Below the pieces are notes generated by a model. It saw nothing but the letters and a program-made list of their open reading frames with translations. It had not been told where the DNA came from and searched no databases. The position numbers and the translations under genes are program-made. 55,504 nt of DNA from Actinomycetota bacterium (GTDB lineage: Bacteria; Actinomycetota; Acidimicrobiia; Acidimicrobiales; JAJPHD01), in assembly GCA_021325455.1 (NCBI GenBank), contig JAJPHD010000015.1:1-55504 (forward strand), in the 5' to 3' direction. Positions within the stretch are counted from its first letter, which is position 1. Each line of letters begins with the position of its first letter. Positions 1 through 52,012 of the stretch are shown here, piece by piece.

Positions 1-438
1 CGCCAGGTCCAGGGCCGCCATGACAAGCAGACCTCCGACGCCCTCGGGGCGGCGGCGTCGGGAGTCGGGCCGGTAGCCAAGTCCTGGGCGTCCTTCTTGC
101 ACTACGGCGTGCGGGCGATCTTGAGCGACAACGGCCCGGAGTACGTCGCCTCCGGCTTCCGGGCCCACCTCGCCGCCAAAGGGCTCGAGCACGTGCGCAT
201 CCCGCCACGCTCACCGAACCACAACGCCGTCTATGAGCGCTTCCACGGCACGATCCTCGAGGAGTGCTGGCGACCGGCATTCCACCGCCGCCGCTTCAGC
301 TCGATCCGCCAGGTCCAGCACGAGGCCGACTCGTTCCTCGCCACCTACCACCGCCGCCGGCGGAACCACGGCGACTATATGAGGGGCCGGACGCCCGCAG
401 AGGTGCTCGACACCTACACGAAGAAGAAGGCAGCATGA
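1..438 (+). CDS. IS3/IS481-type DDE transposase, C-terminal part (cut by window edge)
   Basis: The frame is open from base 1, so the 5' part lies outside the window. The visible 145 codons are the end of an rve integrase-core domain: SDNGPEY carries the second catalytic Asp (codon at 127-129), and NAVYERFHGTILEE carries the catalytic Glu (235-237). The spacing is D-35 residues-E, as in the DD35E (IS3/IS481/retroviral integrase) superfamily. The Arg-rich YHRRRRNHG and the closing TPAEVL motif are typical of the C-terminus of these transposases. The first Asp and the DNA-binding domain cannot be checked, so activity is unknown. No terminal inverted repeat could be identified between the stop codon and the permease gene. 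Confidence 0.85.
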   Translation, partial: RQVQGRHDKQTSDALGAAASGVGPVAKSWASFLHYGVRAILSDNGPEYVASGFRAHLAAKGLEHVRIPPRSPNHNAVYERFHGTILEECWRPAFHRRRFSSIRQVQHEADSFLATYHRRRRNHGDYMRGRTPAEVLDTYTKKKAA

Positions 439-487
439 CCATCAACCACAGGGGCCCGTTGTTACCTCGACCCTGCGCCTGGAAGCC

Positions 488-2077
488 CTAGGCCTGGTCC
501 CTGACGCCGCCCGCGTCGGTGGCGTCGACGGCACCGAGGCGGGGAAGGCGGGAGCGCACGCCCCAGGGAAGGATGAGCAGCATGGACACGGCCGCCACGA
601 TGATCGAACCGACGTCGAACGAGACGATGTCCAGCTTGCCGACGCTGCCGATGCCGGACATGAGGGTGAGGAACAGGACCCAGACGCCGTACCAGATGGC
701 GTGGCGGAGACCGCCCGAGCGGTGGTACAGGCCCATGGCGATGACGCCCACGGCGATCAGGACCACCGCGTAGGGCACCGATGGCCATCCGGACCAGTAG
801 ACGACGAGCGATGCGCCGCCGAAGCCGAGGGCGCCGAGGATGATGGTGCCGGGGGAGAGCCGTTCGCCCTTCTGCCGACGCAAGGAGAGCATGGCGACGG
901 GCACCGCCCCGAAGGAGATGTACCCGCCCACCACGGCGTCGTTGATGAGGCTGTAGATCTTGGGCACCGGGGCGGTGAGCAGGGCGAGGATGGCACCGAC
1001 GACGGCGACGACGATGAGGGCGAGGCCGGGGATCTCGTGGCGCCGGTCGACGCGCTGCAGGCGCCTGGACACGTAGCCGGTGCGTGCCATGGACATGAGC
1101 ACCCTCGAGCCGGCGCCCTGGTACACGTAGCCGACCACGCCGGGGCCGAGGATCCCGACGATGACGGCCACGCTGAGCAGCCACCCCACTCCCCGGTTGG
1201 TGCTGAGGACGATGAACGGGTTGCCGGCCACCTTGGTCAGCGCCGGCCACGCTCCGACCTTCACCGAGAGCGTGCTCCAGCTGATGCCGGCGATGAGGGC
1301 CACGGCGAAGATGATGTAGACGAAGAACTGGATGGCCAGGGTGTAGAGGATCCCGATCTTCAAGGTCCGGGTGCTGACCGCCTCCTCGGCGAAGTCCGGG
1401 ATCACCCGGATGCCGCCGAAGGCGAACATCGCTGTCGGGGCGGCAGCGAAAATGGCGCTGGTCCCAAAGGGGGTGAATCCGCCGTAGGAGGTGAAGTTGG
1501 CGGCGCGGCCCAGCACCACGATGAACCCGATGGCGAGCAGCACGAACAGGATGACCTTGGCGGTGCCGAGGACGTTGGTGATCCGGGAGAAGACCCGCAG
1601 CCCGTAATAGTTGATGGGTATGTAGAGCAGCACCAGGCCGAGGGCGACGAGGGCCCCGTCGGTGCTGGGATCGCCCTTGGCGTTGAGCAGCCCGGCGTCG
1701 AAGTGGGAGATGCCCTCGACGGTGGCGACAGCCTCCACCACGGGGATGAAGATGTACCAGACGAGGCTCCCCACGGAGTTGATGAGGTTGGCGAGGGCCC
1801 CGTGGGTGTAGAGGGCGTAACGGGCTGGCCCGCCCGCCTCGGGGAAGCGGGCGCTCATGTCGACGTAGGTGACGCCGATGAAGGAGTAGATGATGGCGCC
1901 GATGAGCCACGAGATGATCATCGCCGGCCCGGCGATTGCCGCCATGGCCACACCGCTGAAGAGCGCTCCTGTGCCCACCGCGCCCCCCACACCGATGACG
2001 ATCATCGGCCCCCACGAGATGCTCCGGCGCAGGGTCGGCTCGGACTGAGGCACTCTCTTGGTCGTCGTCTCGGTCAT
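488..2077 (-). CDS. APC-superfamily amino acid permease
   Basis: The 529-residue protein has a short polar N-terminus followed by about 12 hydrophobic segments. The first segment carries the Gly-rich GVGGAVGTGALFSGVA stretch that in APC (amino acid-polyamine-organocation) permeases forms the unwound, substrate-binding part of TM1. The next helices include the family-like RFPEAGGPARY. It therefore probably takes up an amino acid or amine by proton symport across the cytoplasmic membrane; the substrate cannot be told. ATG is chosen because GGAGGGAGG lies about 10 nt upstream. It is a single gene between a transposase remnant and a frameshifted gene, so it gives no operon context. Confidence 0.85.
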   Translation of the reverse strand: MTETTTKRVPQSEPTLRRSISWGPMIVIGVGGAVGTGALFSGVAMAAIAGPAMIISWLIGAIIYSFIGVTYVDMSARFPEAGGPARYALYTHGALANLINSVGSLVWYIFIPVVEAVATVEGISHFDAGLLNAKGDPSTDGALVALGLVLLYIPINYYGLRVFSRITNVLGTAKVILFVLLAIGFIVVLGRAANFTSYGGFTPFGTSAIFAAAPTAMFAFGGIRVIPDFAEEAVSTRTLKIGILYTLAIQFFVYIIFAVALIAGISWSTLSVKVGAWPALTKVAGNPFIVLSTNRGVGWLLSVAVIVGILGPGVVGYVYQGAGSRVLMSMARTGYVSRRLQRVDRRHEIPGLALIVVAVVGAILALLTAPVPKIYSLINDAVVGGYISFGAVPVAMLSLRRQKGERLSPGTIILGALGFGGASLVVYWSGWPSVPYAVVLIAVGVIAMGLYHRSGGLRHAIWYGVWVLFLTLMSGIGSVGKLDIVSFDVGSIIVAAVSMLLILPWGVRSRLPRLGAVDATDAGGVRDQA

Positions 2078-2930: not shown

Positions 2931-4589
2931 TCACGGACCAGCACCGGGGTGCTCAGGGTGGTCACTGTTCTTGGTGACAGCCGGCTCCCCTGGGGTGGCG
3001 GGGAGGGACGAGGGCAGGTTGACGACGATCCTGGTGCCACCCGCCTCGTTCTCCTCGGCGGCAACGGTGCCGGCGTGGTCGGCGGCGATGGCGGCCACGA
3101 TGGCTAGGCCCAGCCCCGATCCTCCGGTGGAGCGCGAGCGGGCGGGGTCACCCCGGTAGAAGCGCTCGAAGACCAAGGGTCGCTCGGCTGCGGGGATGCC
3201 CGGTCCGCGGTCGGCCACGACCAGCTCGGCGCGCCCGTTGGAGGGTCGGACACAGATGTGGATGGGCGATCCGGGGGGGCTGTACTTGGCGGCGTTGTCG
3301 ACCAGATTGGCGCACAGGCGGACCAGGGCGTCGGGATCAGCGCTCACCCAGGCGGCCTCGGTGTCCACTCGGAGGGGGTGCTGTGGGCACAGCGCGGCCC
3401 ACTGGGGCCGTTCGCCGGCGATGAGGCCGCCGAGGTCGACCGAGCGGTGGGGGCGGCCGGGCGCCCCGCTGTCTCGTCGGGAGAGCAGGAGGAGGTCGGA
3501 GACGAGACGGGACATGCGCTCGGCCTGGGCCTGGATGTGGCCCAGGGCCTCGCCGAGCTCCTCGGGGTCGTCCGCGGCACCCATGCGGAGGACCTGGGCC
3601 GCCCCCCTTATGGCGGTGAGGGGGGTGCGCAGCTCGTGGGAGGCATCGGCCAGGAACCTGCGCATGGTCTCCTCCCGGGCCTGGAGGCGTTCGACCAGGG
3701 CGCTGCGCTCCTCCAGGCTGGCCCCCAGCCGGTCGACCATGGCGTCGAAGGCTGCCCCGAGACGCCCTACCTCGTCCTCGCTTCGCTCCAGGCCGGCCCG
3801 CCGGTCGAGGTCCCCGGCGGCGATGGCGTCCGCGGTGGCAGCCACCCTGGTGAGGGGGGCGAGGCCCGAGCGGAGCAGGGGCCGGCTGAGAGCGATGGCG
3901 AGGGCCAGGGCGCCCAGGCCGGCGATGACCGTGACGGCCACGACGGTGGACACCGCGGCATCGTCCCCGGCCAGGCTGGTGACGAGGATGGCGGTGTCGG
4001 CGCCGGCGGGCTGGGAGATGGCCAGGAGGTGCTGGCCCCCGGAGTGGAGGGTCACATAGCTGCTTCCCAACCTTGCCTTCTCCACCGAGTCGACGACGCT
4101 GGCGGGAACGGCGAAGGCGCCCTGGCCGGCGGTGCCAACGGCGCTGGCACAGGCCAGGATGGTGCCCTTGGGCCCCACCACGGCGCTGGCAACACCCCGC
4201 TGGGCCAGCACCTGGGCCACCTCGGCGGCCCCTCCCGGTCCCAGGGTGCGGCCCCGGGGCCGGCCCTTCGGCCCGGGGAGTGGTGGCAATGCCGCTCGGG
4301 TCCCGAAGCCGCGACAGCTCCTTGACACGGAGGTGGTGCGCCCTGGCCCTCCGGGCGGGGATGGAGGGGCCCCGGCGGCAAGCAGGGCCAGCTCGGTGCG
4401 CAGGCCTGAGGCGCTGCGGGCGTAGAGGACGTGGCCCAGCACCAGGACCTCGGCGATCCCCACCCCGGCGATGAGCGACGCCAACAAGGCCAGCAAGCCG
4501 ATTGTGAGGCGCCGGCGCAGGGTGAGCTGGCGCCACCTGGGGGCCCGACCCCTGGCTGCGGTGGGTGCTGTCTCGGGGGGCCTGGCCAC
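2931..4589 (-). CDS. Membrane sensor histidine kinase (OmpR-class partner)
   Basis: A 552-residue kinase. A cytoplasmic N-terminal stub is followed by TM1 (about 28-57), an extracytoplasmic sensor region (about 58-208), TM2 (211-235), HAMP (236-290) and HisKA with the ASHELRTP H-box (His318). The HATPase domain shows an N-box (NLVDNAAKYSPPG, Asn432), DRGPGIP (460-466), FERFYRGD and GGSGLGLAIV. All catalytic motifs are intact. It should autophosphorylate and hand phosphate to the regulator encoded just upstream. GTG 4589 is chosen because it is the first start after the regulator stop, 11 bases away; no strong SD is seen, so the exact start is uncertain. It is the last gene of the vWA/J-domain/regulator operon. 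The sensor domain shows no recognised ligand motif. Confidence 0.93.
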   Translation of the reverse strand: MARPPETAPTAARGRAPRWRQLTLRRRLTIGLLALLASLIAGVGIAEVLVLGHVLYARSASGLRTELALLAAGAPPSPPGGPGRTTSVSRSCRGFGTRAALPPLPGPKGRPRGRTLGPGGAAEVAQVLAQRGVASAVVGPKGTILACASAVGTAGQGAFAVPASVVDSVEKARLGSSYVTLHSGGQHLLAISQPAGADTAILVTSLAGDDAAVSTVVAVTVIAGLGALALAIALSRPLLRSGLAPLTRVAATADAIAAGDLDRRAGLERSEDEVGRLGAAFDAMVDRLGASLEERSALVERLQAREETMRRFLADASHELRTPLTAIRGAAQVLRMGAADDPEELGEALGHIQAQAERMSRLVSDLLLLSRRDSGAPGRPHRSVDLGGLIAGERPQWAALCPQHPLRVDTEAAWVSADPDALVRLCANLVDNAAKYSPPGSPIHICVRPSNGRAELVVADRGPGIPAAERPLVFERFYRGDPARSRSTGGSGLGLAIVAAIAADHAGTVAAEENEAGGTRIVVNLPSSLPATPGEPAVTKNSDHPEHPGAGP

Positions 4590-4600
4590 GACGGGGAGCG

Positions 4601-5338
4601 TTACACCACGAGCTTGTAGCCGAGTCCCCGGACCGTTCGGATGTGGCGGCGCTCGGGGTCCAGCTTGTTGCGCAGGTAGCGGACGTACACATCGACGACG
4701 TTGGCATCGCCGAAGAAGCCATAGCCCCACACCTGGTCCAAGATGACGTCCCGGGTGAGGACCTGGCCGGGATGACGCAGGAACAGCTTGAACAGGTCGT
4801 ACTCGCGTCGGGACAATTCCACGGGGGAGCCGTCGCGAGTCACTTGGGCGGCGCGGTCATCGAGGCAGTACGGGCCCGCCGACAGCACAGCCGCCTGGTC
4901 GGGATGGGAGCGGCGCAACAGGGCCCGCACCCGGGCGACCAGCTCGGTGAAGTCAAACGGCTTTACCAGGTAGTCATCGGCGCCGGCCTCCAAGCCGGCC
5001 ACCCGCTGGGGCACAGCGTCAGCGGCGGTGAGCATCAAGATGGCCAGGTCCCGGTTGCCCCGGAGGCGCCGGCACAGCTGTACCCCGTCCATGCCGGGCA
5101 GCATGACGTCCAGGATGACGAGGTCGAAGCGCTCCCGGCCGGCCGCGGCCAGGGCCTCGGTGCCCTCGGAGGCCACCGTCACCTCGTAGCCGGCGCGGGC
5201 CAGCCCCATGCGCAAGAAGCTGGTGATCGCCGGCTCGTCGTCGACCACCAGCAGCTTAGGAGCGGGGCCGGGGCGGTGCAGTCCCGGAAGGCCGGCTGCG
5301 ACGCGCTCGGCGGTGGGCCGGTTGTCCGGTGGGCTCAC
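4601..5338 (-). CDS. OmpR/PhoB-family response regulator
   Basis: The 245-residue protein has a receiver domain (about 28-140) with acidic pocket Asp33/Asp34, phospho-acceptor Asp77 (VILDVMLPGMDG) and Lys126 (DDYLVKPFDF), then a PhoB-type winged helix (about 150-245) ending in RTVRGLGYKLVV. It is a phosphorylation-activated DNA-binding protein that normally binds direct repeats at 11-bp spacing. The GTG start at 5338 overlaps the TGA of the J-domain gene as GTGA, indicating translational coupling. A longer reading frame extends upstream but is only the shadow of the J-domain gene. Its likely target is the repeat array in front of the DUF5666-like gene at 8331-8369 (inference). Confidence 0.93.
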   Translation of the reverse strand: MSPPDNRPTAERVAAGLPGLHRPGPAPKLLVVDDEPAITSFLRMGLARAGYEVTVASEGTEALAAAGRERFDLVILDVMLPGMDGVQLCRRLRGNRDLAILMLTAADAVPQRVAGLEAGADDYLVKPFDFTELVARVRALLRRSHPDQAAVLSAGPYCLDDRAAQVTRDGSPVELSRREYDLFKLFLRHPGQVLTRDVILDQVWGYGFFGDANVVDVYVRYLRNKLDPERRHIRTVRGLGYKLVV

Positions 5339-6336
5339 CGTAGGTCTCCCGGCTCTGGTGACTGGGGCGGCGGTCTTTGAGCTTCCATCGGTCCCATCTC
5401 TACCCTTACCTTGGAGGTGGGCCTGGCGGTGCCGGGGTTCCCCGCCCTTGGAGGATGACGGGGACTGTCGGGGGTCGAGGAGGACGACCTCCGGGCCCAT
5501 AGGCCGTTGGCGTCGATGCGCTGGGGAGGTGTCGCAGGGGCTGGCCGGGGCGACGGTCCTCCACCACTGGCCGGACCAGGGAGCGAGTGCACGACGCCGC
5601 CCCTCGAAGTGCCCGGGAGTGGTCTGCCGACCAGGGAGGTGCCCGGCGCTCCCGGCCAAAGCATGAGCGCTGCTGCCAGGGCCGAGCCGAGAGCGAGGAC
5701 AAGCGCCGGGCGGGATCGCCTCGGCCACCTCCCCGGCGTCGGCCCCGTGACGAAGGCAGAGCTGTCCCGCCTGTGCAGGGATTCATCCAGGGACGGAAGG
5801 ACCCTGGCCGTCAGCAACAGCTCGGCGGGGCGGTCGTCGAGCAGTACCGTCAGGCGGGAGCGCCGTGGCCCTGGTGCGGCCTCCTCGGGGTGGGCTGCCA
5901 CCTCCAGGACCGCCACCTCCTCCGGCGAGGACCCTCCACGTACGCCGAGCAACTCCCAGAAGGCGTCGCTCTCGGGCTCGACCCGCACCGTGGAGGGTGT
6001 CCCGCCGTCGTTGAGGACCCGCACGGCCACGACCGTCTCCCGTCTGACGACGCCCAGGGTGCCAAAATCCACCGCTGCGGGCTCGAGACGCGGCCGGGGC
6101 GGCTCCGCGGCCCGCCGCCAGCGGTCGTAGGCCGCCCGTCTGGCGGGATCGATCAGCACGTAGCGGGCCTCGTTGATCGCGGCCATGTGAGCGCTCACCG
6201 ACGCATCTGGGTTGGTGTCGGGATGCCAGCGCAGCGCCTCTCGCCGGTAGGCAGCGCGTATCTCAGCCTTCGTGGCATCTGGGGTGATCCCCAGCACCTG
6301 GTAGTGGTCAGGGATGGTGTCTCGGTAGCCGCCCAC
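5335..6336 (-). CDS. J-domain membrane protein with ASH/HYDIN-like Ig domain
   Basis: The 333-residue protein starts with a J domain (about 9-75) containing the essential HPD tripeptide (residues 38-40), which stimulates Hsp70 ATPase. Residues about 84-182 look like an ASH/MSP-type beta sandwich: it opens with LEPAAVDFGTL, then an alternating hydrophobic pattern (VAVRVLNDGG, SRLTVLLDD, AELLLTARV). One TM helix (about 210-228) follows, then a Pro/Ser-rich tail of about 100 residues. No Gly/Phe region or zinc-finger domain is present, so it is not a classical DnaJ. No dnaK or grpE lies nearby. It sits between a vWA gene and a two-component pair, overlapping the regulator start by 4 bases. Acting as a co-chaperone in envelope sensing is inference. 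Confidence 0.8.
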   Translation of the reverse strand: MGGYRDTIPDHYQVLGITPDATKAEIRAAYRREALRWHPDTNPDASVSAHMAAINEARYVLIDPARRAAYDRWRRAAEPPRPRLEPAAVDFGTLGVVRRETVVAVRVLNDGGTPSTVRVEPESDAFWELLGVRGGSSPEEVAVLEVAAHPEEAAPGPRRSRLTVLLDDRPAELLLTARVLPSLDESLHRRDSSAFVTGPTPGRWPRRSRPALVLALGSALAAALMLWPGAPGTSLVGRPLPGTSRGGVVHSLPGPASGGGPSPRPAPATPPQRIDANGLWARRSSSSTPDSPRHPPRAGNPGTARPTSKVRVEMGPMEAQRPPPQSPEPGDLR

Positions 6337-6352
6337 GCCGTCGACCCCCGGT

Positions 6353-7201
6353 TCAGCGCGGCGGGGAGCCGGACCCGTCAGTGAGCTCTCGATAGCGGTG
6401 GACAGAGCCCCCGGCCAGCTGGTGCACGTCAGCGGCGACAGTCGCTACTTCAGAGACCATTCCCTGCAGAAGCGCGAACAGCGCACCCGTGTCCATGGAC
6501 GGCCCGATTGGCACCCAGCGCCCACAGTTCTCGACGGCCCACGACCGGAAGTACGGCAGGTCGGGCGAGGCGACGAAGCACACCGCGTCGAGGGCACGCA
6601 AGGCTTCCGCAACCATCTCCGGTCGTGCCGCCGGCGACACCAGGGCCGGCTCGTCGGTGAGGAGGACCACTATCTTGACCGCTCCCCGTCGCCACGGGCG
6701 CTCGAGGGCCACCAGCATGGCCTCGATCGACGACTCGCCCTGGTTGCCGCCCCCCGAGAAGCGGGGCATGGCCCGCAACTGGGCCTGCGCCTCGGCGTGC
6801 GTGGCGACGAAGCCCATGCGGGCCTCGATGCGATCTCCCACCACGGTCAGGTCCCCGAAGGGGACCGTCGTGACCCGCCAGTCGAGCTCCAGGGTGGCCA
6901 GGTCCGAGACCAGGCTCGACATGGCGGCTACCAACCCCTTGATCTTGTCCGACATCGAGCCGGTCGTGTCGAACACGAAGCAGATGTCCACTCGGGCCCG
7001 GCCGATCCGTGTGGCGGTCCCCGGCGCCAATGACGCCACCCGTCCATCAGCGCGCACCAGCACTGGCCCTACCCCTCCCCTCGGCTCTCGCGGGGCGGCC
7101 CAGACGCTTTGATCAGCGAGCCCCCCTTGCGTGGGGGCTGAGCGTGCCCGCGGGGCTTGGTCGGCATGAGGAGCCCGGCGGCGAAACAGCGAGTTGGCCA
7201 T
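6353..7201 (-). CDS. von Willebrand factor type A domain protein
   Basis: The 282-residue protein has an Arg-rich N-terminus of about 70 residues followed by a vWA domain whose MIDAS motif is D78-T-T-G-S82 (FVFDTTGSMSDK). A further metal-site segment is seen in SGGGNQGESS and the late VLLTDEP. vWA domains bind a divalent metal and partner proteins; this one lacks a signal peptide, so it is probably cytoplasmic. ATG 7201 is chosen over an in-frame ATG 27 bases upstream because GGGAGGT lies 5 bases before it. It is the first gene of the operon vWA - J-domain - response regulator - kinase. Its partner is unknown; the neighbouring J-domain protein is the obvious candidate. Confidence 0.85.
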   Translation of the reverse strand: MANSLFRRRAPHADQAPRARSAPTQGGLADQSVWAAPREPRGGVGPVLVRADGRVASLAPGTATRIGRARVDICFVFDTTGSMSDKIKGLVAAMSSLVSDLATLELDWRVTTVPFGDLTVVGDRIEARMGFVATHAEAQAQLRAMPRFSGGGNQGESSIEAMLVALERPWRRGAVKIVVLLTDEPALVSPAARPEMVAEALRALDAVCFVASPDLPYFRSWAVENCGRWVPIGPSMDTGALFALLQGMVSEVATVAADVHQLAGGSVHRYRELTDGSGSPPR

Positions 7202-7379: not shown

Positions 7380-8306
7380 TCAGCTGCCTTGCACCGAGCG
7401 GGACGACGACTGGCCGGACGAGGAAGCCGAGCCGGTGCTGGAAGAGGAGCCCGACGACGAGCGGCCCGAGGACCTGGCTCCCGATGGCGGGGACGGGGCC
7501 CGCCCGGGGGCAGGTGGCGGGGGCGCCACGGCGACCACATCGGCGTTCAGGTGGGTGAGGCCGGTCTGGGCCCCCTCCGCCGTGACGTGGCTCCCGATCG
7601 AGATGGCCGACGAGCTGGTCCGGGTCCTCCCCTTGTAGTACCGGGTCGAAGCGCCGGTGCTCACCGTGAGCAGCTGGCCGTTCGGGCCCACCAGCGTGAG
7701 TGTCCCGTTGCTGTCCGCCGTGACCCGGCCCATGAAGGTCGGCTCGATCACACTGACCTGGGTGGCCTTCACCGTCCCCGTCCCGGGCGGGGGTGGCGTC
7801 GACGCCGACGACGACCCGCTTGACGCCGGGGTGCCGACCACCTGCACCACGTCGCCCACCACGAGGTCCGAGCGCTTGATGGTCTGCATCTCCTTGGTGT
7901 AGGCGGTGGACGAGGAGGTGTCCACCGTCTCGGTGCCGTTCATCGTCCGCAGGGTCAAGGTGGAGGTGCCGATGGCGGTGATGGTCCCCCCGCCCCCTCC
8001 AGGGCCACCCGGGGGCCCGGGAGGGCCGCCCAGCGGTCCAGGTCCCCTCCGAGCAGGGCGCCCACCGGGAGGGCGGGGCCGGGCTATCCTCGGTCCCGAG
8101 GACCCCCCGGACCCGGAAGAGGGGGAGGTGCTGCCCTTCGCTGTGGTCGTCGATGACGAGCTCCCGGTGGAGGCGCTGGCGATGCCTGTCACCGCGGCGA
8201 AGGCGCCGCCTGCGGTGAGCCCGCCGACCAGGGCCAACCGGGTCGTGCGAGAGAGCCTGCCGCTCAGGCTTGGACGAGGACGGTGGGGAGAGGGGTCATC
8301 GCTCAT
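7380..8306 (-). CDS. Secreted DUF5666-like repeat protein
   Basis: The 308-residue protein has an Arg-rich N-region, a hydrophobic stretch (LALVGGLTAGGAFAAVTGIASAS) that looks like a signal peptide, a Ser/Gly/Pro/Arg-rich linker, and two beta-rich units (GTITAIGTSTLTLRTMNG..., GRVTADSNGTLTLVGPNG...) that resemble DUF5666. The C-terminus is a low-complexity Ser-rich tail. The function of DUF5666 is not known; the protein is probably exported. The start is set at ATG 8306 rather than 8312 because TAGGGT (8314-8319) lies 7 bases before it, matching the leaderless pattern seen elsewhere here. Its promoter carries three TGAGAG repeats, a probable target of the adjacent two-component system. Confidence 0.7.
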   Translation of the reverse strand: MSDDPSPHRPRPSLSGRLSRTTRLALVGGLTAGGAFAAVTGIASASTGSSSSTTTAKGSTSPSSGSGGSSGPRIARPRPPGGRPARRGPGPLGGPPGPPGGPGGGGGTITAIGTSTLTLRTMNGTETVDTSSSTAYTKEMQTIKRSDLVVGDVVQVVGTPASSGSSSASTPPPPGTGTVKATQVSVIEPTFMGRVTADSNGTLTLVGPNGQLLTVSTGASTRYYKGRTRTSSSAISIGSHVTAEGAQTGLTHLNADVVAVAPPPPAPGRAPSPPSGARSSGRSSSGSSSSTGSASSSGQSSSRSVQGS

Positions 8307-8313
8307 GGCCATG

Positions 8314-20895: not shown

Positions 20896-21591
20896 TCAGG
20901 CCAGGAGCAGGGTGGCGACGGCTTCGGTGTCGGAAAGGTCGGCCAGCACGGCGTCGGCGCCGAGCTGGCTGAGCTGGGCCAAGGTGGTGCGGCCCGTGGC
21001 CACCAGCAGGCAGCGGGCCCCCGAGGCTCGGGCCCCTTCGAGGTCCCTCTCGGTGTCCCCGACCACCCAGACGGCCTCGGGGCGAAGGGCCCGGCCCCGG
21101 AGCCTTCGCACCCGGTCCAGGGCCACCGGGACCAGGGCCCTGCGATCGGCCTGGTCGCTGCCATAAGCGCCCACCTCCAGGTCGAGCCAGCGGTCCAGGC
21201 CGAAGGCCTTCAGCTTCACCACCGCATTGGGGGCGATGTTCCCGGTGAGGACGGACTGGATCACCCGGGGCTCCTGCGCCAGGCGCTGCAGCAGCTCGCC
21301 CACGCCGGGGAGGGCCCGGCCCCGCTCCTTCACGATGTGGGCGGCCTCGGCCAGCTGTTCCTCCAGGTGGCGCAGCACGGTGGGGAGGTGCTCCTCCGCT
21401 CCGTCCACCTCCATGAGCTCCAGGTACTCCCGCACGATCTGGGGGTCCGTCTTCCCCCCCATGCGTATCCTGCTGGCCGGGGGCCGGCCCAGGGCCAGCT
21501 CGATGGCCCGGTCGAAGACCTCCGCCCCGATGTCCCCGGCGCGCACCAGGGTCCCGTCGATGTCCCACAGGACCAGGCGCTCGCCGCTCAT
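20896..21591 (-). CDS. HAD-family phosphatase
   Basis: The 231-residue HAD hydrolase has motif I DIDGTL (LVLWDIDGTLVRAG), motif II in QSVLTGNIAPN, and motif IV-type VVGDTERDLEGARASG. An alpha-helical cap lies between I and II, as in phosphoglycolate/beta-phosphoglucomutase-like members. It is not a recognisable OtsB, but it precedes otsA by 21 bases on the same strand and could be the trehalose-6-phosphate phosphatase (inference). ATG 21591 is supported by TAGGGT (21599-21604, minus strand) 7 bases upstream. It is divergent from the MarP-like gene. Confidence 0.82.
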   Translation of the reverse strand: MSGERLVLWDIDGTLVRAGDIGAEVFDRAIELALGRPPASRIRMGGKTDPQIVREYLELMEVDGAEEHLPTVLRHLEEQLAEAAHIVKERGRALPGVGELLQRLAQEPRVIQSVLTGNIAPNAVVKLKAFGLDRWLDLEVGAYGSDQADRRALVPVALDRVRRLRGRALRPEAVWVVGDTERDLEGARASGARCLLVATGRTTLAQLSQLGADAVLADLSDTEAVATLLLA

Positions 21592-21598
21592 GGCGCCG

Positions 21599-21629
21599 AC
21601 CCTAGAGGTGAGAGGGGGCCGTCTAGCCT
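21599..21629. promoter_or_regulatory. Divergent leaderless -10 boxes (HAD / MarP-like)
   Basis: Minus strand: TAGGGT at 21604-21599, 7 bases before the HAD ATG. Plus strand: TAGCCT at 21624-21629, 8 bases before the MarP-like ATG. Neither gene has a useful SD and neither box has a recognisable -35. Confidence 0.45.
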
Positions 21630-21637
21630 CCCGGCGC

Positions 21638-22840
21638 ATGGTGTCGGTGGCGGGGCTGGGCGGCCTCGACTGGGTCGACTGGATCCTCATCGCCCTGGGG
21701 GTGCTGGCCGCCGTGCGGGGGCTGCGCATGGGAGCCGCCGTCCAGGTCCTCTCCTACGGCGGGTTCTGGCTGGGCTTGGTAGTGGGCGCCCTGGTGGCAC
21801 CGGCGGCCGTGGCCCAGGTGAACGGTGAGCTCTCCAAGGCCGTGGTGTCCCTGGTGGTGGTCTTCGGGGTGGCCGCCGTGCTGGGGGCGGTGGGCCGGGG
21901 CATAGGTGGCCTGCTATGGAAGGCCCTGCGCCGGATCCACCTGGGCCTCGCCGACTCCACCCTGGGCCTGGTGGTGGCGGTGGCCGCCACCCTGCTCGCC
22001 TGCTGGCTGGGGGCCACCATCCTGGTGCAGGGGCCCTCCCCGACGCTGGCGGCAGGGATCGCCAACTCGAAGATCCTCCAGGGCATGGACCAGGTGCTGC
22101 CCCCCTCCCCTTCGGTGTTCAACCGCATCAGGGCCTTCGTCAACACCTCCCGCCTGCCCCAGGTGTTCTCGGGCATCGCCCCGGTCACGGCAGGGCCGGT
22201 GAAGGTCGCCGGCGCCCCGGCGGTACAGCAGGCGGTCAGGGTTGCGGGGGGCTCCATGGTCGAGGTGCTGGGCGCCGGCTGCAACCAGATCCAGGAGGGT
22301 TCCGGGTTCGTGGTGGCGCCCGGCCTGGTGGTGACCAACGCTCATGTCGTCGCCGGCATCCCCCACCCGGTGGTCGTGGACAGGGCCGGGGCGCGGCGCC
22401 CGGCGGAGGCCATCTACTTCAACCCCCGGTACGACCTGGCGGTGCTGCGGGTGCCCGGCCTCTCCGAGCCCCCCCTGCGCCTGGATCCCTCCGACGTGCC
22501 CCGTGGCACCCAGGGAGCCGTTCTCGGCTACCCGGAGGGAGGGCCGTTCACGGCCGTCCCCGCCGGGGTGATACAGCGCTTCCAGGCCACGGGCCCAGAC
22601 ATCTACGGGCAGGGCTCCACGGTGCGCAACGTGTATGCCATCCAGGCCGTGGTCCGCCCCGGGAACTCAGGCGGCCCCCTCGTGGAGCCCAACGGGGAGG
22701 TGATCGGGGTCGTCTTCTCCAAGTCGGTGTCGACCCCCCGCCTGGGCTACGCCCTGGCCTCGCCCGGGGTGGAGGTCCGGGTGGCCCAGGCCGAGGCCCA
22801 CCCCGGCAATCCGGGCACAGGTGCCTGCACCTCCGCCTGA
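21638..22840 (+). CDS. MarP-like membrane serine protease (CvpA + trypsin)
   Basis: The 400-residue protein has a CvpA-like N-terminal domain with four hydrophobic helices (about 13-131) followed by a trypsin-fold domain. The triad is His236 (VTNAHVVAG), Asp266 (RYDLAVL) and Ser344 (RPGNSGGPL). A Cys near the start of the protease domain (Cys215) and one close to the C-terminus could form the disulfide known in mycobacterial MarP. MarP acts in the periplasm and protects against acid and oxidative stress; the same role is inferred here. ATG 21638 follows TAGCCT at 8 bases. GH15 follows after 51 bases. Confidence 0.88.
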   Translation: MVSVAGLGGLDWVDWILIALGVLAAVRGLRMGAAVQVLSYGGFWLGLVVGALVAPAAVAQVNGELSKAVVSLVVVFGVAAVLGAVGRGIGGLLWKALRRIHLGLADSTLGLVVAVAATLLACWLGATILVQGPSPTLAAGIANSKILQGMDQVLPPSPSVFNRIRAFVNTSRLPQVFSGIAPVTAGPVKVAGAPAVQQAVRVAGGSMVEVLGAGCNQIQEGSGFVVAPGLVVTNAHVVAGIPHPVVVDRAGARRPAEAIYFNPRYDLAVLRVPGLSEPPLRLDPSDVPRGTQGAVLGYPEGGPFTAVPAGVIQRFQATGPDIYGQGSTVRNVYAIQAVVRPGNSGGPLVEPNGEVIGVVFSKSVSTPRLGYALASPGVEVRVAQAEAHPGNPGTGACTSA

Positions 22841-50528: not shown

Positions 50529-51032
50529 ATGACCACACAACAGACCAGGGACGAGGTCAGGACCTTCTTCGCCCAGCGGCTCCCCGGGGGCTGGTTCGAG
50601 GGAGAGCCCGACATAGACGTCGACGACGACGAGATCCTCGTGATGGGCAGGTTGCCCGCCCCGGAGGGCGCCGACCGGGTGGCGGAAGCCGCTCGTATAG
50701 CCGAGTGGCGGGAGGAGACCCGGGGCAAGCGCATGGCCATAGCGGCCGAGGCGGAGGCCTCCTGGGAGCGCAAGGTGTCCTGGGGGGCTCGCTGTGGCGA
50801 GGTGACCAGGGCCTTCACGACCCTGAGCGTGCCGGTCATGACCAGGCTCCGGTTCCACGACCGGGCTGTGCTGGACACCCTGGTGGAGGCGGGGGTGGCC
50901 CGGAGCCGCAGCGAGGCGTTGGCCTGGTGCGTGAGGTTGGTGGGGTCTCACGAGGCCGACTGGCTGAAGGACCTGCGAGAGGCCCTGGTCGGAGTACGCC
51001 GCGTTCGGGCCGAGGGCCCCTCCCTGATCTAG
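50529..51032 (+). CDS. Ribbon-helix-helix-like protein of unknown function
   Basis: The 167-residue protein has an N-terminal DEVRTFFAQRLPGGWF segment, an acidic stretch (PDIDVDDDEIL), a helical middle (about 50-90), and a C-terminal region that reads as a ribbon-helix-helix: strand VMTRLRF, helix HDRAVLDTLVEAGV, turn ARSRS, helix EALAWCVRLVG. This suggests a DNA-binding or antitoxin-like role, but no toxin gene is adjacent. I do not recognise the family. The next gene starts 2 bases after its stop. Confidence 0.65.
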   Translation: MTTQQTRDEVRTFFAQRLPGGWFEGEPDIDVDDDEILVMGRLPAPEGADRVAEAARIAEWREETRGKRMAIAAEAEASWERKVSWGARCGEVTRAFTTLSVPVMTRLRFHDRAVLDTLVEAGVARSRSEALAWCVRLVGSHEADWLKDLREALVGVRRVRAEGPSLI

Positions 51033-51034
51033 CC

Positions 51035-52012
51035 ATGGATCCCTCGGGGCACCTGGTCGGGGGGGAAGCCGGCACCGCCGAGGGCCCCACCTCGGTGCTC
51101 GACGCCTACTCGGCCGTGGTGACGGCGGTGGCCGAACGCGTCGTGCCCTCGGTGGCCAGCCTGGTCGTCCGGGGCCGGGGCGCCCGGGAGGGCTCCGGCA
51201 GTGGGGTGGTGGTGACGCCCGACGGCTATCTGTTGACCTCGGCCCATGTGGTGGCCGGAGCCAACCGGGGCCGGGTGTTGCTGGCCGACGGGCGGGACCT
51301 CGAGATGGAGGTGGTGGGGCGGGACGAGCTCTCCGACCTGGCTGTGGTCCGCGCCCAGGGTGGCCACCTACCCTTTGCCACCCTGGGGGATGCCGACCGC
51401 TTGAAGGTGGGCCAGCTGGTGGTCGCCGTCGGCAATCCGCTGGGAATGGCAGGGACGGTCACGGCGGGGGTGGTGAGTGCCCTGGGGCGGTCGCTGCCGA
51501 CCACAGGGCGCTCGGCCGTCCGCCTGGTGGAGAACGTCATCCAGACCGATGCCGCCCTCAACCCGGGTAGCTCCGGGGGGGGCCTGGCTGACTCGCGAGG
51601 CTGGGTGGTGGGCATCACCACGGCGGTGGCCGGCGTCGGCCTGGGGCTGGCCGTCCCCCTCAATGCGGCCACCAGGGCCATTGTCGGTGCTCTCATGCGG
51701 GACGGGCGGGTGCGTCGTGCCTACCTCGGCATCGTGGGGGCCCAGCGCCGCCTGGGGCCCCGCCAGGTGGCGGTGGCCCGTCAGGCGGCCGGCGTGGGTG
51801 TGGCTGAGGTCATCGATGCCAGCCCGGCGGCCCGGGCCGGGCTCCGGCCGACGGACGTGATCCTGGCCGTGGAGGGAACCCCCCTGGAGGGAGTGGGGGC
51901 TCTCCAGGCCCTGATGGTGGAGGAGGCCATCGGTCGGCCCCTCGCTGTGCGGGTCCTCAGGGGAGACGAGGTGGTGGAGCTGACCGCCTGGCCGGCAGAG
52001 CTGGTCGACTGA
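51035..52012 (+). CDS. HtrA-like trypsin/PDZ serine protease
   Basis: The 325-residue protein has a trypsin-fold domain (about 35-215) with His71 (TSAHVVAG), Asp101 (LSDLAVV) and Ser180 (NPGSSGGGLAD), then one PDZ domain (about 225-320, GVGVAEVIDASPAARAGLRPTDVILAVEGTPL). No signal peptide or membrane anchor is seen, so it is probably cytoplasmic unless the start is misplaced. Such proteases remove misfolded proteins or cut specific substrates. It shares a transcript with the RHH-like gene and abuts the convergent MFS gene. Confidence 0.88.
   Translation: MDPSGHLVGGEAGTAEGPTSVLDAYSAVVTAVAERVVPSVASLVVRGRGAREGSGSGVVVTPDGYLLTSAHVVAGANRGRVLLADGRDLEMEVVGRDELSDLAVVRAQGGHLPFATLGDADRLKVGQLVVAVGNPLGMAGTVTAGVVSALGRSLPTTGRSAVRLVENVIQTDAALNPGSSGGGLADSRGWVVGITTAVAGVGLGLAVPLNAATRAIVGALMRDGRVRRAYLGIVGAQRRLGPRQVAVARQAAGVGVAEVIDASPAARAGLRPTDVILAVEGTPLEGVGALQALMVEEAIGRPLAVRVLRGDEVVELTAWPAELVD

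Follow-up and report, generated by a model that had tools for sequence, protein, structure and literature searches.

In the 55,504-nucleotide stretch of Actinomycetota DNA analysed here (the window), the gene of a small vWA protein lies beside the gene of a membrane protein that joins a J domain, an ASH-type domain and a transmembrane (TM) helix, and we hold with moderate confidence that the two form a module in which the second protein is an adaptor that recruits a client to the membrane and probably DnaK as well, and that the two-component system downstream is an ordinary neighbour. A sequence-only reading of the same DNA had placed four leftward genes here (vWA, J, OmpR-type regulator and kinase), and Pfam agrees for all of them. 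The features of the locus are as follows.

7380..8312, minus strand: DUF5666 gene, upstream and separate (Pfam DUF5666, E 6.7e-9)
6353..7063, minus strand: vWA gene, probable start GTG 7063 (Pfam VWA, codon bias, homologue in L042, described below)
5335..6336, minus strand: J-domain/ASH/single-TM gene (Pfam DnaJ, AlphaFold2 model, TM scan); J domain at residues 10-71, ASH domain at about 84-182, TM helix at 211-229, tail at 231-333
5776..6105, minus strand: predicted ASH/PapD-like region, J protein residues 78-187 (AlphaFold2 model; no Pfam family up to E 10)
5335..5338, minus strand: GTGA, stop of the J gene and GTG start of the regulator gene (sequence)
4601..5338, minus strand: OmpR-type response regulator (Pfam Response_reg and Trans_reg_C)
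about 2931..4589, minus strand: sensor histidine kinase, HAMP-HisKA-HATPase_c, with two TM segments (Pfam, TM scan)

Elsewhere in the window, an open frame resembling (by eye) the C-terminal part of an IS3-type transposase lies at the left edge (97-438, plus strand), a CvpA-like (Colicin_V) membrane domain is fused to a trypsin-like protease at 21227-22840 (plus strand), and a trypsin-PDZ (HtrA-like) protein is encoded at 50705-52012 (plus strand).

The J domain (Pfam DnaJ, E 3.6e-19) contains the HPD motif already read from the sequence, and the TM scan likewise returns the one helix that had been expected. The residues RWPRRSRP before this helix suggest an N-in orientation, and the J and ASH domains, which both precede the helix, are probably cytosolic. 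The middle domain had been proposed to be Ig-like and of ASH type, and the modelling bears this out: AlphaFold2 builds residues 78-187 as a beta-sandwich of eight strands (pLDDT 80.3, pTM 0.71) from a shallow alignment of two organisms, i.e., the window sequence and two halves of the L042 domain, and both Foldseek and VIA-align 2 match the model to ASH-type structures. The top six Foldseek matches comprise human HYDIN (2e6j) and proteins of the ciliary central apparatus, at E about 3e-4 to 8e-4, and VIA-align 2 finds central-apparatus chains, VesB, CEP192, OCRL and HYDIN at Z 11.6 to 8.6; cadherins and further Ig-like sandwiches score about 8. ASH/PapD-like is the best-supported assignment for the predicted domain, which partly overlaps general Ig-like folds. 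A PDB sequence search with this domain gave no convincing match, and the full J protein modelled poorly from its single sequence (pLDDT 44).

The vWA protein matches Pfam VWA at E 3.6e-9 (37.5 bits vs a cut-off of 23.8), has no TM segment in the TM scan and is probably cytosolic; a PDB sequence search with it yielded no convincing match. Its start had been put at ATG 7201, but GTG 7063 is probably the start, since the coding signal begins only near 7050 and a Shine-Dalgarno-like sequence (AGGGGAGGGG) precedes GTG 7063, which leaves about 315 bp between the vWA and DUF5666 genes. The metal site had been called MIDAS-intact, and this stands for the DxTxS motif (D78, T80, S82) and D183, all of them also conserved in L042, but not evidently for the second loop, GGGNxGESS, where a canonical Thr is not obvious.

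A pattern search across GTDB genomes (84,980 species) returned one other close relative of the vWA protein, in the distant genome L042 (Acidimicrobiaceae palsa_740), 55% identical to that of the window. There too the vWA gene is followed by a J/ASH/TM gene, the TTG start of which overlaps the vWA stop (TTGA), so that two instances of the pair are known.

3395-4832 of L042: J gene; YPD motif, three TM segments, long ectodomain

An assembly gap (NN at 3803-3804) interrupts this gene, the TM segments and ectodomain lying beyond it, and the contig is only 5.7 kb long. A TM segment follows the J and ASH domains in both copies, two further TM segments and the long C-terminal ectodomain of the L042 protein are missing from the window copy, and YPD replaces HPD in the L042 J domain. 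No regulator or kinase follows the L042 pair on this 5.7-kb contig, and the best kinase homologues in the same genome (39-41% identical) are on other contigs than the pair. Close to the end of the contig the opposite strand carries an EAL-like open frame (by eye), and a recombinase-like gene (by eye; 175-1218, plus strand) is located about 1.4 kb upstream of the pair.

We infer the topology, the binding roles and the recruitment of DnaK as follows: the vWA domain would grip a partner protein via its metal site, the ASH domain would dock the vWA protein or its partner, and the J domain would hand the complex to a housekeeping DnaK encoded elsewhere, with the outcome that the complex is built, dismantled or retained at the membrane. 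No dnaK had been noticed nearby and, indeed, none is present among the scanned window genes; the sole full-length dnaK of the genome sits on a different contig, C5, where a J-domain gene is close by. By analogy with vWA co-chaperones and DnaJ-FNIII proteins (PMC7159879), capture of a client or partner at the membrane with DnaK recruitment would be the most likely function. Because the L042 J domain has YPD, stimulation of DnaK may not be a conserved function, and the DnaK step may have been lost in this relative. We tentatively go one step further, to a claim that we hold with less than even confidence, i.e., that this is an undescribed module in which a small vWA protein and a membrane J/ASH adaptor would recruit DnaK (or a different partner where the motif is YPD) to a complex at the membrane, with neither MoxR nor a GTPase nor a dedicated Hsp70 taking part; our literature search found no described pair of vWA and J/ASH proteins.

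The vWA family is very rare. Further close relatives were found neither in 198 related genomes nor in sets of 395 genomes of the class, 396 of the phylum and 397 of the order (sets partly overlapping), nor among 147 relatives of the L042 genome. These searches gave only weak vWA matches, and around those from the search of relatives no J gene was seen in the nearest 1.5 kb or so. Such a very patchy distribution would fit a different possibility, that the vWA-J pair is cargo of a mobile element, a defence-like conflict module akin to the chaperone-thresholded systems in Kaur et al. (2020). The recombinase-like gene upstream of the pair in L042 and the transposase-like fragment at the left end of the window would fit this too, as would the published precedents for DnaJ joined to a beta-sandwich. 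However, no MoxR, GTPase, GAP1, Hsp70 or GrpE gene and no effector domain was found among the scanned neighbours of the pair, nor was MoxR AAA+ seen among the L042 open frames; PADLOC had no match for the vWA or J protein (and only weak partial ones for the regulator), viral contigs and phage records held no useful match for the pair, and plasmids gave a single remote one. We consider this possibility unlikely, albeit the least so of the alternatives.

Nearly as well placed, but slightly more doubtful in our estimate, is a decaying operon that once functioned, in which the J gene would have lost its original ectodomain by a deletion that fused it to the upstream region of the regulator gene. 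The coding signal, measured by codon-position G+C and a codon log-odds score, is relevant here: codon-position z is 5.0 for J residues 1-77, 3.6 for the ASH domain and 10 for the regulator core, but 0.2 for the Pro-rich tail (residues 231-333), vs -0.4 and 0.0 in intergenic controls, and the signal is flat from about 5600 to 5300. The Pro-rich tail described in the sequence-only reading survives as an open frame but not as a stretch with codon signal. Over its last ~100 codons the J gene appears to run on into intergenic sequence; with the frame open, translation of the tail is to be expected, yet it does not look selected. The flat signal and the two extra TM segments and ectodomain of L042 both speak for decay, against which the vWA core, J and ASH regions retain codon bias and an open frame, and the J domain retains HPD.

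The same tail bears on the joint between the J and regulator genes. The GTGA overlap is physically real in the sequence, as had been noted, and has a Shine-Dalgarno-like GGGAG upstream. An open frame of 103 codons arises by chance in 24% of dinucleotide shuffles, which, with one-in-three phasing, puts the chance of the J-regulator overlap at roughly 8%; as evidence for a selected J-regulator operon the overlap is weak. A scan of the locus for sigma-70 promoters and intrinsic terminators found none, a result that is uninformative at 71% G+C.

Pfam upholds the regulator and the HAMP/HisKA/HATPase kinase as a full OmpR-type pair, which scores below the curated cut-offs of the named two-component subfamilies compared. 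Among the 18 best kinase-homologue loci of the order (two from the window's own genome), the regulator adjoins the kinase in 17, and the surrounding 5 kb or so (shorter at contig ends) holds no vWA or J gene in any of them. With these homologues lacking vWA and J, and the L042 pair lacking an adjoining two-component system, the four genes do not recur as neighbours in the genomes compared, and the system is probably an ordinary OmpR/histidine-kinase neighbour, located downstream and possibly co-transcribed. In G021, a close relative of the DUF5666 gene stands without vWA, J or two-component genes around it. We rejected DUF5666 as a regular companion of the two-component system, the two genomes that have it next to a kinase homologue (G008 and G067) being too few for such a role; DUF5666 genes beside two-component systems in the order (L087 5709-6536; G067:C15:11578-11772) possibly reflect a loose association. 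In the window, the DUF5666 and two-component genes flank the vWA-J pair, and the three look like separate units lying side by side, given the two-component homologues without vWA or J and the DUF5666 relative standing alone in G021. A four-gene envelope stress system, in which the J/ASH/TM and vWA proteins would sense envelope damage and modulate the kinase, in line with the chaperone-assisted stress sensor that the sequence-only reading had suggested, has in its favour the common strand, the tight spacing, the GTGA overlap with its Shine-Dalgarno-like sequence and the lack of a terminator between the genes in the (uninformative) scan, but it is the most improbable reading of all, as the L042 pair and the two-component homologues occur without each other and the J tail at the junction is without codon bias, the overlap there having a chance probability of about 8%. 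Envelope-stress sensing is not supported, and placing the two-component system probably outside the module removes the stress-sensor story.

Returning to the preferred reading, a two-gene module of vWA and J/ASH/TM proteins, its parts can be set beside several known systems. Among them are the chaperone-thresholded conflict systems, in which DnaJ domains are fused to FNIII proteins that cooperate with Hsp70, vWA acting as co-chaperone (Kaur et al. 2020, PMC7159879). The GTPase-centred GAP1-N2 systems of this class (PMC7159879) share with the pair an actinobacterial fusion of a J domain to a beta-sandwich, and vWA domains occur in the class, but our pair has ASH in place of FNIII repeats and a vWA that forms a small protein by itself. 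MoxR-vWA chaperone pairs resemble it in having a cytosolic vWA of MIDAS type, probably a co-chaperone, whereas the partner here is a J-domain protein and no MoxR AAA+ ATPase is among the scanned neighbours. Membrane-anchored J-domain proteins, with an N-terminal J domain and a TM helix like that of the window, are common in the order, but those examined have neither an ASH domain nor a vWA neighbour; recurrent among such loci (L096, L098, L105, L107, L112 and L113) are J-domain/single-TM proteins with a short Cys-containing C-terminal domain and without ASH or vWA. The domain layout of the regulator and kinase is shared with OmpR-type two-component systems (CztR/CopR- and MtrAB-like). The pair would matter more if it proved widespread in further genomes, being at present very rare. 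If our reading is true, a J-ASH fusion paired with vWA would be a new partner combination among prokaryotic chaperone adaptors. The predicted fold of its middle domain is shared with the ASH/PapD-like domains of HYDIN, CEP192 and OCRL, from which it differs in being bacterial, fused to a J domain and without a Pfam sequence match, and it would place a fold of the HYDIN/CEP192 type in a membrane co-chaperone of a bacterium.
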